From a bacterium (lineage in GTDB: Bacteria > Vulcanimicrobiota > Xenobia > Xenobiales > JADMJV01), in the NCBI GenBank assembly GCA_030149525.1, contig JASBRJ010000235.1, forward strand, positions 1 through 64,000: 64,000 nt of DNA, in the 5' to 3' direction. The stretch's first letter is position 1, and the number at the start of each line of letters is the position of its first letter. The notes beneath the pieces were generated by a model. That model made no database searches. It saw nothing but the letters and a program-made list of their open reading frames with translations, and had not been told where the DNA came from. Shown piece by piece: positions 36,453 to 61,032 of the stretch. A program made the translations under genes and the position numbers.

Positions 36453-38285
36453 TTGAAATATCCCGCTTGGACCGATATCAACTACATTCATGAGGCTCTC
36501 GAACGATTCCGTTACGTGCTTCCCACCGGTCTCTCAAGATGTGGAAAGCTCTCGCTTGCCGCCTACAATTTTGCAAACGAGCTCTACTGGTATGACGGGG
36601 AGAAAGCCCGTCCGGTGGTCCTGCAGGGCGACGACTCCGGCCAAGGCACCGCTCTGGGATTGAGTTCCGATGGAAAGTTTCTTTGCGGAACCGTGAAAGG
36701 TGTCATGTTTCGCCACTCCTTGTCTCTCAACGAAACTCTCTGGTTCAGGGAAAGCGACGGTCGTAAAGCAAGACAGGCGTTTGCCGTAAATTCCTCCGGC
36801 ATCGTAGCCGGGTTAGGCGTGAATTCTCCCAGACAAGGAGGGGTCGTCGGCTCGGAAGACCTTCTTCGATACCCCGGCTTCACTCGGTTCTACGCTCTGA
36901 CTGACAGCGGGATTGCCGCTGGTGCGGACCGTGACTTTTCCGGATATCACCAGGTCAAAGAGAACTCCTCGAAAACTTTTGAACAACCCCAGGGGGCCGT
37001 GACCGCACCGTTCGGCATCTCCGACGATGGTCGGTTTATGGCAGGAGTCCTCAGGTTAGCTAAGGACGAACCTTGGCAGCCTGCGTTCTGGGACGGCGGT
37101 AAACTGAGCCGAATCGTTGACGTTGAAGGGAATACCTTCTCTGGTGTGGCTCTAGATGTGAATTCCCATGGTCTGATTGTGGGAGTACGGTTTACAAAGC
37201 CGCTCGACTCCGCGAGAGCGCTCACTCAGGGCCCGAGAAGCTCGCCGTTCCTGTCTGCTGGTGGGGAAGAGATCGGTGAACCCTTTTATTGCGAAGCCGC
37301 CACCGGCGTTGCCTATCCTATCGGCTGGTTCGCTTCGAAGTTCCACAGTATAGCGCTGATCAACGACGACAATCTCATTGCCGGCTACTATCGGGCGACT
37401 CCCGACTCGGGTCCCAGACCTTATACGGCTCGCTTGAAGTTCGACAAGGAGCCTTCTTCCTCAAGGTTGCCCCGAACCAAGTTTAAGAAAGCCGCCATTA
37501 TCTACGACTTTGACGGCACTCTGGCTCAAGGGAATATGCAGGAACACTCTTTTATCGAGGCGGTTGGAGTCACGCCCGAGGAATTTTGGGAGAGTTCCAA
37601 CGGGATGGCGAGAGAGCAGGACGGCGACCAGATTCTCACCTACATGCGAGAAATGTTGACCAGGGCCGAAAAGAAGGGCTTTCCGATAACGAAAGCGCTT
37701 CTCGCCGAGCATGGGGCCAAGATCAAGCTTTTCGACGGGGTCGAAGATTGGTTTCGGCGCATCAACGATTTTGCCCGACAGCAGAACCTGCAACTAGAGC
37801 ACTACATCATTAGTTCCGGCATTCGTGAGATGATACGGGGGAGTTCCATCGCCCACCACTTTAAAGAAATTTTTGCTTCCGGTTTTGTTTACGAAGACGA
37901 TCAGGCGGTGTGGCCCGCATTATCGATCAACTACACCACCAAGACCCAATATCTGTTCAGAATTAATAAGGGCATCGACAATTGCTGGGATGACACCGCA
38001 ATCAACAAATGGATGCCTCTCTCTCAAAGACCGATGCCGTTCGAAAATATGATCTTTCTGGGCGACGGAGAGACCGACATCCCCACCATGAAGATGGTTC
38101 GGCATCAGGGAGGCGCCGCGGTGGCTGTCTTCGACCCTGAGCGTTGGGACGAGCTTCAGGAACGAATTTTTCCTCTTATTTCAGAGAATAGAGCCGACTT
38201 TGTGGCCTCTGCCGACTACCGGGAAGGGAGTCAGCTGGAATTGACCATCAAGGGATTATTGGGTCGGATCGCGCTGCGAGAATAG
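36453..38285 (+). CDS. Fusion of HAF-like beta-propeller and HAD-superfamily phosphatase
   Basis: TTG at 36453 follows a strong AAGGAGG box. Residues 1-340 are repeats of the form SSDGKFLCG, NSSGIVAGLG, SDDGRFMAGV and NSHGLIVGV, as in HAF-type propellers. Residues 345-610 form a HAD hydrolase with DFDGT (nucleophile Asp near 353) and GDGETDIPTMK (near 537). Both parts look intact, and no frameshift joins them. Such propellers are usually extracellular and HAD enzymes cytoplasmic. No signal peptide is seen, so the whole protein is probably cytoplasmic. Confidence 0.75.
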   Translation: MKYPAWTDINYIHEALERFRYVLPTGLSRCGKLSLAAYNFANELYWYDGEKARPVVLQGDDSGQGTALGLSSDGKFLCGTVKGVMFRHSLSLNETLWFRESDGRKARQAFAVNSSGIVAGLGVNSPRQGGVVGSEDLLRYPGFTRFYALTDSGIAAGADRDFSGYHQVKENSSKTFEQPQGAVTAPFGISDDGRFMAGVLRLAKDEPWQPAFWDGGKLSRIVDVEGNTFSGVALDVNSHGLIVGVRFTKPLDSARALTQGPRSSPFLSAGGEEIGEPFYCEAATGVAYPIGWFASKFHSIALINDDNLIAGYYRATPDSGPRPYTARLKFDKEPSSSRLPRTKFKKAAIIYDFDGTLAQGNMQEHSFIEAVGVTPEEFWESSNGMAREQDGDQILTYMREMLTRAEKKGFPITKALLAEHGAKIKLFDGVEDWFRRINDFARQQNLQLEHYIISSGIREMIRGSSIAHHFKEIFASGFVYEDDQAVWPALSINYTTKTQYLFRINKGIDNCWDDTAINKWMPLSQRPMPFENMIFLGDGETDIPTMKMVRHQGGAAVAVFDPERWDELQERIFPLISENRADFVASADYREGSQLELTIKGLLGRIALRE

Positions 38286-49052: not shown

Positions 49053-49571
49053 TTAGTCTGTCAGGTCGCGCCAGAAATCGCTCCACTCCCGGCCGATGTC
49101 TTTTTTGGCATCCTCAAAATCACGTTGTCGCTGAATCCGGCGGTCTTCGCGATCTCGCTGCTTCTGGGTCTGGGCATCGGGTCGATATCCGCCGTCTTCC
49201 ATCCCGCGGTTGAACTCTCGTTTAAAGTCTTCGATGCCACGATTCCAATCGGTTTTTAGATCGTTGAAGTCCCGGTCAAGGCTTCGGCCAAAGTCTTCAA
49301 AGGTGGATTCTACGGCGGGCTCCTCGGGAGGTTGGCTCATAACGTAGGCTCCAGCCAAGAAAGCTCCTCCCAGCGCGCCTGCCGCAGCGAGACCGATTCC
49401 AACCTTTTTGAGAGTAGAGGTGGAGGGTTGACTGGATTTGGCAGTGGCACCGCTGAAAGTGAAGGAGTCTGTTGGAGTGGTGACTTCTTTACTTTCGCTG
49501 GTGCGGGGCGGGCTGGCCATATTTCGGCGAACCAGCGGATTGGATTTGAAGTTTTGAAATTTTACGTCCAT
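49053..49571 (-). CDS. Single-pass membrane protein with charged C-terminal domain
   Basis: The 172-residue protein has a Ser/Thr/Pro-rich first 60 residues, one Gly/Ala-rich transmembrane helix (KKVGIGLAAAGALGGAFLAGAYVM, near 55-78) and a highly charged helical tail rich in Asp, Arg and Gln. That tail has regularly spaced Phe/Trp (FNDLKTDWNRGIEDFKREFNRG). No family is recognised. Confidence 0.6.
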   Translation of the reverse strand: MDVKFQNFKSNPLVRRNMASPPRTSESKEVTTPTDSFTFSGATAKSSQPSTSTLKKVGIGLAAAGALGGAFLAGAYVMSQPPEEPAVESTFEDFGRSLDRDFNDLKTDWNRGIEDFKREFNRGMEDGGYRPDAQTQKQRDREDRRIQRQRDFEDAKKDIGREWSDFWRDLTD

Positions 49572-57353: not shown

Positions 57354-57387
57354 AGGTCTCTCTCACTCCGCTTTGGAAGCCTGGCCT

Positions 57388-58842
57388 GTGAAACGAAGAG
57401 ATTTTATGAAAGCAACGGCCATGGCTCCCTGGTTGGTCGGTCGCGCCCTGGCCAACGTTGAAATGCCGTCGTCTGAACAGCCCTGGTCGGTGGTCGGGGA
57501 TCTGGGGAGTGACGGTGTCGCCCGACTCGCTGTGGGTGGGATGGGTGAGGGCACCCTCACCGTAGAATGGTCGACCGTCTTGGGGCGCAAGCTCTCCGGT
57601 CGGAGCGTGGGCGACAAGGCTACGGCGGCCACCGATTTCACCGCCCAGGCCACCCTCAAGAACCTACCCTCCGACAGTGAGGTTCTTTACAAGGCTCGAG
57701 TGGGAGCCAAAACAGTCTACGGGAGATTCAAGACCGCCCCCTCATCGACGGATACTCCGGTTCGTCTGGTTTGGGGCGGAGACGTGGTTGGCCAGGGGTG
57801 GGGGATTGATCCGGCTCGGGGCGGCATGCTCACTTTCGCCTCCATGCTGAAAGAGAATCCTCACTTCTTTCTTCATAGCGGTGACTCTATCTATGCCGAC
57901 GTCCCCGTCAGCCCCATCAAGAAGATGGATAATGGAGAGACCTGGCACAATCTGACAATACCGGAGAAGCGTTCCCCGGCCGCTACGCTGAAAGACTTTC
58001 ATGGAAACTATCGTTACAACTTCCTGGATGAGCACTACCGAAAGTTCTTTGCCCAAGTCCCTGTCATAGTTCAATGGGACGATCACGAAGTGAAAAACAA
58101 CTGGTCTCCTGCCGAGCATGCCGACCTCGCCGACCCGGGCAGGCAAGCTTTTCGCAACTACTGGCCGGTCCGGGACGGGCGTTCGGAACCCCTTTACCGG
58201 AAGCTCTCCTTCGGTCCCCTGGTGGATGTTTTTGTGCTGGACCTCCGAGACTACCGCGCCCCCAACAGTGACAACGACCAGTCGAAGGCAGGACCAGAGA
58301 CTCTCATGTTGGGGCCCGAGCAAGTGGCCTGGTTCAAGGAGGCTATGGCGGAAAGCCGGGCTGTGTGGAAGATCGTTGGAGGCGAGATGCCGTTGGCCAC
58401 CTACACCCCTGAGTGGGGGCTCGATAGTTGGGCCAACGGAAAGGCCGAGGTCTTGGGGCGGGAGCACGAACTGGCTGACATTCTGAGCTTTTTCAAGAGG
58501 AAAAAAATTGAGAACGTTGTGTGGCTGAGCGCCGATGTGCATTACGCCATGGCTATCGAGTATCTTCCGGAAAAGGCGGCCTTCAAAGACTTCCAACCGT
58601 TCTGGGAGTTTATCGCCGGACCACTCCACGCCGGGACTTTTTCCCCTCAAGGTGATCTCGATCCCACTTTCGGTCCGGTTGAGCATTTCTGCGCCGTGCC
58701 CCGAGACCTGCCGCCCAATCGGCCACCCTCAGACGATCTTCAATTCTACGGAAAGATCGAGGCCGGTCTTGATCAACTGGCGGTCAGTTTGCATCAGAGA
58801 CAGGGTAAAGAGATTTATAAGGTCGTTATCCCGGCCTCTTAG
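57388..58842 (+). CDS. PhoD-like alkaline phosphatase with Tat signal
   Basis: GTG at 57388 gives MKRRDFMKATAMAPWLVGRALA, a twin-arginine signal; a TTG at 57373 would add five residues ahead. The mature protein has the fibronectin-like N-terminal region and the metallophosphatase core: GDVVGQGWGIDP, HSGDSIYAD, VPVIVQWDDHEVKNNW and WLSADVHYAMA. It matches PhoD phosphodiesterases/phosphatases that need Ca and Fe and act in the periplasm. It overlaps the convergent gene by four bases. Confidence 0.88.
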   Translation: MKRRDFMKATAMAPWLVGRALANVEMPSSEQPWSVVGDLGSDGVARLAVGGMGEGTLTVEWSTVLGRKLSGRSVGDKATAATDFTAQATLKNLPSDSEVLYKARVGAKTVYGRFKTAPSSTDTPVRLVWGGDVVGQGWGIDPARGGMLTFASMLKENPHFFLHSGDSIYADVPVSPIKKMDNGETWHNLTIPEKRSPAATLKDFHGNYRYNFLDEHYRKFFAQVPVIVQWDDHEVKNNWSPAEHADLADPGRQAFRNYWPVRDGRSEPLYRKLSFGPLVDVFVLDLRDYRAPNSDNDQSKAGPETLMLGPEQVAWFKEAMAESRAVWKIVGGEMPLATYTPEWGLDSWANGKAEVLGREHELADILSFFKRKKIENVVWLSADVHYAMAIEYLPEKAAFKDFQPFWEFIAGPLHAGTFSPQGDLDPTFGPVEHFCAVPRDLPPNRPPSDDLQFYGKIEAGLDQLAVSLHQRQGKEIYKVVIPAS

Positions 58843-60014
58843 TCGGTGTTCCAAGCTTCGTCGGAGGGCCAGTAAACCTGGGCTCTGTCAGGGAGTTCCA
58901 TACTTTCGATGACGGTTTTGGGCAAGAGCGCAAACTGAGTCTTGTAGAGAAACGTCGCCTGATCGGCCGAGCGTATCTTTCCACCCTCAAAGGAAGGGTC
59001 AAAGTAGGTGATGTCTTTTCCGTCACTGCCTTTGAAAAGGAGCATGTGAGGCCGTTCTACACCGTTGGCCCCCTCCCAATTGAGGCCCATTTGAAAATGG
59101 AAGTCGGCAGGCGCCTCGGCAATCAATTTCCTCAGAGCCGGGGCGGAGTGGGAATCGTGGTAAACCACGCCGTGCTCTGTTCCGGCAAATTCACTTGTGA
59201 GATCGGCTAACTGGAGAGGTTTCAGGGCGTAGTCACCCGAGGCGAATCGGTCGGTAGCTCCGTCGTAGGCTCCGAAGACAGGCGACCCGGCGCGATCCAT
59301 AAAGGCACCCTGGAGGACACGATTGAGGAGATTTCGGCCACTACCGTCGTCCTGGAGAGAGCCGTTGACCAGGTGCAACAGTTTCCCTTCGCTCACTTCG
59401 GCGCGCCCTTGAGGGGCTGTGAGTCCATCGACTACGGGTAGAATCTTCAAAGGCTCGGAGGCGAGTTGGTACTGGAGATTTGTAGCGGCACAAGTTTCCC
59501 GATTGCCTTGATAGCTGTTGTTTTCCGGAGCCGCTAGAAATTCCACGGTCTGGCCGGTTAAAGCGGACGGATCCACGGAGGGGTGGCGATGGTGGGAAAG
59601 CTCTTCAATCTGCTCAATAACACTCCCGTTCTCGTTGGATTGCCCAAGAGTGCCTGTTTCCAAAAGATTCAAGACGGCTTTCTGGCTACTTGCCCTTCCG
59701 TCGATGACGTTCCATACTTCGCGCAGGGCTGCCGCCGCGGGGGCGGGTAGACCGCTCAGAGCAGCCGCCTGCGCTCCATTGAGGGCGTCAAGAGAAAGGC
59801 GCTCTACGGAAGGGGGGCTGGTGGGTGGTGCTATGCTTGGCGGAGCTTTCGGCTCTCTGGAGAGGACCGGCTGAACAACAGCGTCTTTCGGCTCACTCTC
59901 GGCGGGCTTGTTTTGCCGCAACGGGTTGGAGACAACGGGCTTGGGGGCAAACCTTCTTCTCAGTGAAAAGTTGCCGGGAGCGCTGCTATGGCGGGAACGC
60001 ATGGGGATTTCCAT
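58839..60014 (-). CDS. Papain-fold-like cysteine-protease candidate
   Basis: The 391-residue protein starts with a basic, proline-rich disordered region (to about residue 75). A conserved-looking Cys occurs in NRETCAATNLQYQLA, followed far downstream by RPHMLLFKGSDGKDITYFDP. The Cys-His-Asp order could form a papain-like triad, as in C39-like or effector peptidases. No signal peptide is seen. Whether it is secreted by another route or is an intracellular enzyme cannot be told. The assignment is tentative. Confidence 0.45.
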   Translation of the reverse strand: MEIPMRSRHSSAPGNFSLRRRFAPKPVVSNPLRQNKPAESEPKDAVVQPVLSREPKAPPSIAPPTSPPSVERLSLDALNGAQAAALSGLPAPAAAALREVWNVIDGRASSQKAVLNLLETGTLGQSNENGSVIEQIEELSHHRHPSVDPSALTGQTVEFLAAPENNSYQGNRETCAATNLQYQLASEPLKILPVVDGLTAPQGRAEVSEGKLLHLVNGSLQDDGSGRNLLNRVLQGAFMDRAGSPVFGAYDGATDRFASGDYALKPLQLADLTSEFAGTEHGVVYHDSHSAPALRKLIAEAPADFHFQMGLNWEGANGVERPHMLLFKGSDGKDITYFDPSFEGGKIRSADQATFLYKTQFALLPKTVIESMELPDRAQVYWPSDEAWNTD

Positions 60015-60119
60015 TCTCCAAGATTAGCTGGTTGGCCTGAAGCAATCCTGAAAAAGCCAATCAACTTTGACCATCTGGTCATTACATCTCTGTTTGGGAC
60101 GTGTTAGTGTATGCAGCAT

Positions 60120-60239
60120 AGAACTTAACCATTCCGCTTCAGCCCGTAGCGGAGGGCCAAGACAGGTTCTAGCGTGCCGGCAAATTTTGTCGGCAAAGGA
60201 CTCCGGGTCACCCCCATACCTTACCCGGTGTCCTTTTTT
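60120..60239 (+). ncRNA. Candidate structured small RNA ending in a terminator
   Basis: No protein frame explains this plus-strand stretch, and both neighbouring genes lie on the minus strand. An outer seven-base stem joins AGAACTT (60120-60126) to AGGTTCT (60164-60170). Inside, TCCGCT pairs with AGCGGA (60133-60153). Then TGCCGGCAA (60175-60183) pairs with TTGTCGGCA (60187-60195). A terminator follows. The structure does not match the SRP, 6S, tmRNA or riboswitch consensus patterns I know. A clear promoter is not visible; TTGACC at 60067 is the nearest -35-like box. Confidence 0.5.
60198..60239 (+). terminator. Rho-independent terminator after the candidate RNA
   Basis: GGACTCCGGGT (60198-60208) pairs with ACCCGGTGTCC (60223-60233) with one mismatch and is followed by TTTTTT at 60234-60239. 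The T run is on the plus strand, while the flanking genes are on the minus strand. Confidence 0.85.
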
Positions 60240-61032
60240 ATTTGTCCGGTTTTTGAGCCAGCATGAGAAGACTCGTTCCGAAAGGGTTGAGCCCCAGGGG
60301 AGCCCAGTGGTGGTCAAAGAAGAAGAAAAGCTTCATCAGTTGCCTTCCTAAAAATCCGGGAACTCTGGAATAGTAGGAGTAAAGCTCCCAATCGGTGAGT
60401 CCCTCGGGTCGTCGGGCTCGATCCAAACGGCGTTGAACGCGCAGTATCGGGACCATCCAACCACCCCACCAGAATCGTGAGAGTTTGTTCAAGCCGGAGC
60501 CCTCAAACGCGTTTTCCAGAGTTTGAGGCAGGTAGCGTCGCCGATGCCCCTGGATCTCATCAAACTCGGACCAAAGCTCGGGAAGAGCGGGGACGCTTAC
60601 CAGTATGAGACCCCCTGGTCGACACAGCTTCGCCAGGGTCCGAACGGCGTGTTTGTCGTCGTCGATGTGTTCAATAACATCCATCGCCACCACGGCATCG
60701 TAAGGCTTGAAGTCCTCCGGGAGAGGCTGGGTGAGGTCGGCCTGAATGAGACAGCGGTTTGGGCTGTCCAACATTTCCAGCATCCCTCTGGAGATGTCGA
60801 GGCCCGTCACCTTATATCCGGCTCTCTCCAGGGCCACAAGGTTCGTTCCCCAACCGCAACCCGCTTCCAGAATCCTTGCCCCCGGGCTGATTCCGTGCCG
60901 GCCCAGAAGTTTGAGAAGGAGGCTTGTTCTTGCCTGCCACCAGGGGTGGGCCGACATCTGAGAGACCAATCGGGTGAGAATCTCGGCCGGCATGTTGTTG
61001 TCGGTGTCGTTGACCGACCATACGTCGATCAT
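60238..61032 (-). CDS. Class I SAM-dependent methyltransferase
   Basis: ATG at 61032 gives a 264-residue protein and overlaps the upstream epimerase stop by four bases; a longer frame from 61176 lies inside that gene. Motif I is ARILEAGCGWGTNLVALE, followed by VTGLDIS, and DAVVAMDVIEHIDDD, typical of UbiE/UbiG-like or glycolipid methyltransferases. It is the last gene of the four-gene operon with a UbiA-type prenyltransferase. A role in methylating a polyprenyl or other lipid product is likely but unproven. Confidence 0.88.
   Translation of the reverse strand: MIDVWSVNDTDNNMPAEILTRLVSQMSAHPWWQARTSLLLKLLGRHGISPGARILEAGCGWGTNLVALERAGYKVTGLDISRGMLEMLDSPNRCLIQADLTQPLPEDFKPYDAVVAMDVIEHIDDDKHAVRTLAKLCRPGGLILVSVPALPELWSEFDEIQGHRRRYLPQTLENAFEGSGLNKLSRFWWGGWMVPILRVQRRLDRARRPEGLTDWELYSYYSRVPGFLGRQLMKLFFFFDHHWAPLGLNPFGTSLLMLAQKPDK

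Follow-up and report, generated by a model that had tools for sequence, protein, structure and literature searches.

What is known about bacterial small RNAs (sRNAs) comes mostly from a few model lineages, and the described systems closest to the locus reported here are 6S RNA, the Fusobacterium sRNAs FoxI and FoxJ, and the enterobacterial sRNA MicL. FoxI and FoxJ both depend on sigma-E; FoxI pairs through a poly-cytosine stretch, which FoxJ also has, and FoxJ is conserved across the genus and was verified by northern blotting (PMC11005410). MicL is a sigma-E sRNA that represses the lipoprotein Lpp (PMC12137417).

The stretch of DNA analysed here, termed the window, comprises 64,000 nucleotides of contig C378 from an 8.27-Mb genome and contains a candidate sRNA close to its downstream end (Table 1). 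Like 6S RNA (RF00013), the candidate would be a small structured RNA with transcription of its own, but 6S RNA covers 187 model positions and forms a single long hairpin with a bubble at the centre, whereas the candidate spans 124 nt and folds into three hairpins. With FoxI and FoxJ it has in common a short length, an intrinsic terminator and a promoter of a type found at the genes of a regulon. The promoter signal there is an alternative sigma-factor motif and here a palindrome beside a sigma-70-like promoter, and, in contrast to FoxJ, the candidate is so far known from one bacterial genome only, by sequence alone (PMC11005410). The resemblance to MicL would lie in a candidate trans-acting RNA within a possible regulon that includes lipoproteins; the two differ in that they have no sequence relation and that, for the candidate, we only infer regulator, target and Hfq dependence.

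We favour, with somewhat better than even confidence, a free-standing, lineage-specific and probably Hfq-type trans-acting sRNA gene on the plus strand that belongs to a small regulon, a reading supported by the fold, the one-directional terminator and a promoter layout common to other loci. An earlier note on this DNA had proposed an undescribed structured RNA. A structured RNA on the plus strand is indeed supported at the sequence level and matches no Rfam family, and "undescribed" is correct in no stronger sense than that of an sRNA candidate specific to its lineage. The locus plausibly represents an ordinary new intergenic terminated sRNA, not a new RNA class, and knowledge of RNA classes is unchanged by it. 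It is of value as a candidate with clear borders from a lineage that has received little study, and its promoter signal, by tying it to other genes, offers a testable entry into regulation there.

Table 1. Coordinates of the candidate sRNA, its predicted signals and the flanking genes in the window.
Feature	Positions	Strand	Description
Flanking gene, 391 aa	58839-60014	-	Without Pfam family
14-bp palindrome TGACCATCTGGTCA	60068-60081	+	Putative transcription-factor site; centre ~-42 from the predicted start
-35 TTACAT	60082-60087	+	Abuts the palindrome; TTNC(A/G)(T/A) conserved at C378, C74, C351, C54, C301, C262
-10 TAGTGT	60105-60110	+	17 bp past the -35, preceded by TG (extended -10); equal spacing in four independent loci
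Candidate small RNA, ~124 nt	60116-60239	+	MFE -50.7, z -4.96; predicted start 60116-60118, end in T run
Hairpin 1	60116-60173	+	Interrupted stem GC/UAGAACUU ... GGUUCUA/GC, inner CCGCU/AGCGG; -17.6 kcal/mol, z -2.4
Hairpin 2	60175-60195	+	UGCCGGCAA-AUU-UUGUCGGCA, 9 pairs, 3-base loop; -12.0 kcal/mol, z -3.8
Hairpin 3 (terminator stem)	60196-60235	+	12 pairs around one mismatch, 14-base loop
C-rich terminator loop CACCCCCAUACCUU	60209-60222	+	Unpaired in MFE and centroid folds; proposed pairing site
Intrinsic terminator	60196-60239	+	Stem 60196-60235, T run 60234-60239; scored by d-score
Flanking gene, class I SAM methyltransferase	60238-61032	-	Methyltransf_23, E 3e-21; convergent with the sRNA candidate

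Locus, fold and terminator

The candidate lies in a gap of ~220 bases between two minus-strand genes (58839-60014 and the methyltransferase gene ending at 60238), as the earlier note had observed when it delimited a 140-base interval, 60100-60239. Of that interval, 60116-60239 is retained as the structured RNA candidate, and the first 16 bases (60100-60115) are assigned to the promoter. The methyltransferase stop codon (60238-60240) overlaps the plus-strand T run, and all genes from 60238 to the end of the window are on the minus strand. Between the candidate and the nearest upstream plus-strand gene (57373-58842) comes the 391-aa minus-strand gene, so the terminator serves no plus-strand gene. 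Downstream, no plus-strand gene was found either, which argues against a riboswitch or leader. There is no plus-strand ATG within 60116-60239 and no plausible plus-strand open reading frame, and the candidate, as expected of an independently transcribed intergenic sRNA, overlaps no coding gene on its own strand. In line with the earlier statement that no neighbouring gene accounts for the hairpins, no plus-strand gene on either side explains them.

The fold at 60116-60239 on the plus strand is beyond chance, with a minimum free energy (MFE) of -50.7 kcal/mol and a z of -4.96. Dinucleotide shuffles gave -32.8 +/- 3.6 kcal/mol, and not one of the 200 was as good. The whole window was scanned on both strands with 124-nt frames every 60 nt, together with the chosen frame, using 24 shuffles per frame. 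The frame at 60116(+) had the lowest z, a rank to be read in light of its register having been chosen; the nearest frame of the grid, 60121(+), gave z -3.9 and ranked 12. Other unusually strong predicted folds in the window are found at 49381-49564 on the minus strand (z ~-7.5) and 36961-37144 on the plus strand (z ~-5.1; 24 shuffles).

The MFE and centroid folds agree on three hairpins followed by TTTTTT. Three stem-loops and an additional terminator had been described earlier; the count is three in all, the third hairpin being the terminator itself. Hairpin 1 is one long interrupted stem that may be counted as two helices, which accounts for the four stems mentioned in the same place, and the G-T wobble reported there is present in the form of G-U pairs.

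The terminator is directed along the plus strand alone, in agreement with the strong terminator and plus-strand T run noted before. Six Ts at 60234-60239, then ATTT, follow the stem, and a d'Aubenton-Carafa-type score in our own implementation was ~+16 for the plus strand. The candidate thus has an intrinsic terminator on its own strand, as expected of an independent intergenic sRNA. Hairpin 3 was not picked up by a simple terminator scan limited to loops of <=8 nt, because its loop is long (14 nt).

An unlikely, still credible explanation is that the hairpins form the 3' end of the minus-strand methyltransferase operon, as a bidirectional terminator or stabilising 3' UTR, with the plus-strand fold as its mirror image. 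The overlap of the stop codon with the T run would be consistent with this, as would the minus strand, which also folds well (MFE -46.6 to -47.7). Against it, the stem is followed on the minus strand by no more than TTT, with a terminator score of ~-48, and over the same interval, 60100-60239, the plus-strand fold is the more significant (z -3.57 versus -1.87). It would also leave the palindrome, the -35/-10 layout and hairpin 1 unexplained.

Promoter layout and the loci that share it

The palindrome TGACCATCTGGTCA occurs once in the window and is over-represented in the host genome. With the flank as query, BLAST against this genome hit short stretches of contigs C351 and C54 that match 60064-60087, and TGACCANNTGGTCATTA is present in four exact copies in the 8.27 Mb, each with different flanks. 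Allowing <=2 mismatches, TGACCANNTGGTCATTA was found 10 times forward and 10 times reverse, compared with 1 and 3 for the reversed control; an 18-base form at the same tolerance gave 6 and 5, compared with 0 and 0. Among the other genomes of the order, no comparable excess of the 18-base form was detected.

The combination of palindrome and TTNC is present at six places, on C378 (the window), C74, C351, C54, C262 and C301. At four independent loci, hexamers starting with TA (TAGTGT, TATAAT, TATAGG and TAAGGT) stand 17 bases past the -35, a shared -10 that was matched in 0 of 20,000 shuffles and equalled at no other offset from 10 to 24. This layout suggests that about six units, the candidate among them, form a set with a common promoter arrangement. 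The candidate accordingly has a predicted promoter of its own, in which TAGTGT matches the -10 consensus at three of six positions; a generic promoter scan did not detect it. The shared spacing of the -10 would place the start of the sRNA at 60116-60118, which coincides with the beginning of the fold.

An activator that contacts the -35 (class II activation) commonly binds near -42, where the palindrome is centred, and the site could equally be that of a repressor overlapping the -35. The literature was checked for TGACCA/TGGTCA sites, and the promoter of lugR, which encodes a TetR-like regulator, was found to contain a partly similar palindrome (PMC11980582), too little to name the factor.

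On C351, C54 and C301, the promoters lead to open reading frames with lipoprotein signal sequences and a lipobox reading GCES or GCEE, and Pfam assigned no family to those on C351 and C54. On C262, the layout was followed only to the edge of the contig. On C74, the TATAAT promoter is followed after ~60-80 bases by the terminator hairpin GCCCGAC-ATT-GTCGGGC-TTTTTT, and this terminated unit (L064:1501-1620), with a PilZ-domain gene on one side and a response-regulator-like gene on the other, is a possible sibling sRNA or attenuated leader. Behind the promoters, the sequences are otherwise unrelated, apart from those on C54, C262 and C301. An origin of the promoter in a mobile repeat was considered and rejected, as only this trio is alike beyond the promoter.

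Two further observations concern the lipoprotein-type loci. On C351 (L065, ~1500), the palindrome is central in a longer inverted repeat, AACAAGGAGGTTGCTT ... AAGCAACCTCCTTGTT. On C351, C54 and C301 (L065, L063 and L072), an ATG GGG/GGA start lies 6-7 bases past the predicted -10, so these mRNAs may be leaderless.

Homologues and known RNA classes

Rfam at the gathering threshold found no family in the whole window, and relaxed settings returned only mir-34 and HOXA11-AS1, which were rejected as chance hits; for the candidate stretch, nothing meaningful appeared at E values up to 10. A search for tRNA and tmRNA was likewise negative, and over 59950-60350 the 6S model (RF00013) did not match even with E relaxed to 10. 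The likely 6S RNA of the host genome is found on C246 (L151:1501-1694); its 41.3 bits fall short of the Rfam cut-off (46.4), which the 6S RNAs of five relatives of the same family exceed. Taken together, these indicate that the candidate is not a divergent 6S RNA, a reading that was consequently discarded. The earlier judgement that the hairpins are unlike 6S RNA and tmRNA thus agrees with the searches. A role as a CsrA decoy was dropped because the GGA triplets sit in stems.

BLAST of the region against 58 genomes returned only scattered matches of 16-27 bases and no homologue; those at L007 and L011 (CCGTAGCGGAGGGCCA) were rejected, as their flanks are unrelated. A covariance model (R1) was built from the single sequence and run on 149 genomes of the phylum, where apart from itself it recovered two weak matches, at 17-19 bits (E 0.17 and 0.47), both taken for chance. 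Within the order, at E up to 10, it found besides itself one 14-bit match (E 2.6), also taken as chance, and no true paralogue was identified. Collections of plasmids, phages, viral contigs and genomes of 85,000 species yielded nothing by DNA, neighbouring protein or composite promoter pattern. Synteny was followed through the 391-aa gene and the methyltransferase gene, whose relatives are ~30-38% identical (34-38% for those of the 391-aa gene within the family), and the relatives of the 391-aa gene in four family genomes have no such RNA alongside. A conserved structured RNA class would have homologues with compensatory base changes, and no homologue was found with R1 in the 149 phylum genomes; this is mild evidence against an old, conserved class.

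These results also bear on whether the RNA does anything. It is improbable that a real promoter and terminator produce an RNA that is non-functional or very young and has no regulatory role. Finding nothing similar in the other 148 phylum genomes searched, and no RNA at this place in those family genomes where the 391-aa gene has a relative, would be compatible with such an origin; a fold far beyond chance over the whole length and a promoter common to other genes argue against it.

Quite improbable as well is a cis-acting antisense RNA that spans the gap between the methyltransferase and 391-aa genes and interferes with read-through of the minus-strand operon. Given the weak terminator on the minus strand, read-through may occur, and the RNA would show full complementarity to it, but the RNA covers no coding sequence. 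Moreover, if the element CTGAAAAAAAGATGAA described below is a promoter, the 391-aa gene would not depend on read-through, a point tempered by the partial resemblance of the window to that element. Chance hairpins in an intergenic gap without any transcript would agree with the lack of conservation and are scarcely credible given the z of -4.96, the plus-strand terminator and the promoter architecture common to other loci.

The 391-aa protein itself has five further, weaker matches in its own genome, in addition to the family relatives. By eye, a cysteine peptidase is suggested by the stretch NRETCAATN together with H and D residues further on. Also by eye, the family relatives (L044-L047) have in common a short element, CTGAAAAAAAGATGAA, upstream of their start codons, read on the strand opposite the genes, which is possibly a promoter or 5' UTR element; positions 60046-60066 of the window read CCTGAAAAAGCCAATCAA and resemble it only in part.

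Proposed mode of action

For the favoured reading, an sRNA gene in a small regulon, the following course is proposed. A transcription factor would bind TGACCATCTGGTCA at ~-42, directly upstream of the -35, and control the sigma-70-type promoter TTACAT-N17-TAGTGT. Transcription would start at 60116-60118 and stop at the T run, at 60239, to give a stable RNA of ~124 nt. This RNA would most likely act in trans by base pairing, aided by Hfq, which is encoded on contig C144 (PF17209, 88.9 bits); the hfq gene and the U-rich tail of the candidate both fit an Hfq-dependent sRNA. The 14-nt C-rich loop CACCCCCAUACCUU, the longest unpaired stretch of the candidate, is complementary to AAGGUAUGGGGGUG, a sequence reminiscent of a ribosome-binding site plus start codon, and would thus expose the complement of such a sequence. 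Other sRNAs, among them FoxI of Fusobacterium, also pair through C-rich regions (PMC11005410). Under the common promoter, the regulon would bring together lipoprotein-type genes and one or more further short terminated units.

Complementarity of the loop to targets is suggestive only. Against 176 start regions of the genome, the lipoprotein start on C351 ranked fourth, with 9 bp and -16.1 kcal/mol, and 0.5% of shuffled loops were as good; several loops and targets were tried, so this pairing is a lead, not a result. It also conflicts with the promoter model: a start 7 bases past the -10 would let the mRNAs from C351 and C54/C301 begin at or next to AUGGG, leaving ~5 bp, so that leaderless mRNAs would lose most of the pairing. 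It is a long shot that the sRNA and a family of lipoprotein genes, apparently leaderless and in two copies apparently phase-variable, are under one activator-type promoter, and that the C-rich loop of the sRNA blocks the AUGGG(G/A) start of their mRNAs. If true, the result would be a feed-forward circuit: the sRNA would silence leaderless genes for surface proteins within the regulon to which it belongs.

The lipoprotein gene starts on C54 (L029) and C301 (L072) are 97% identical over 143 bases. Both have a run of TTTTC repeats in the stretch coding for the signal peptide, ~80-130 bases downstream of the palindrome, and in both the frame of the ATG meets a stop just before the lipobox frame, an arrangement that resembles the off state of slipped-strand phase variation, or else an error of assembly.
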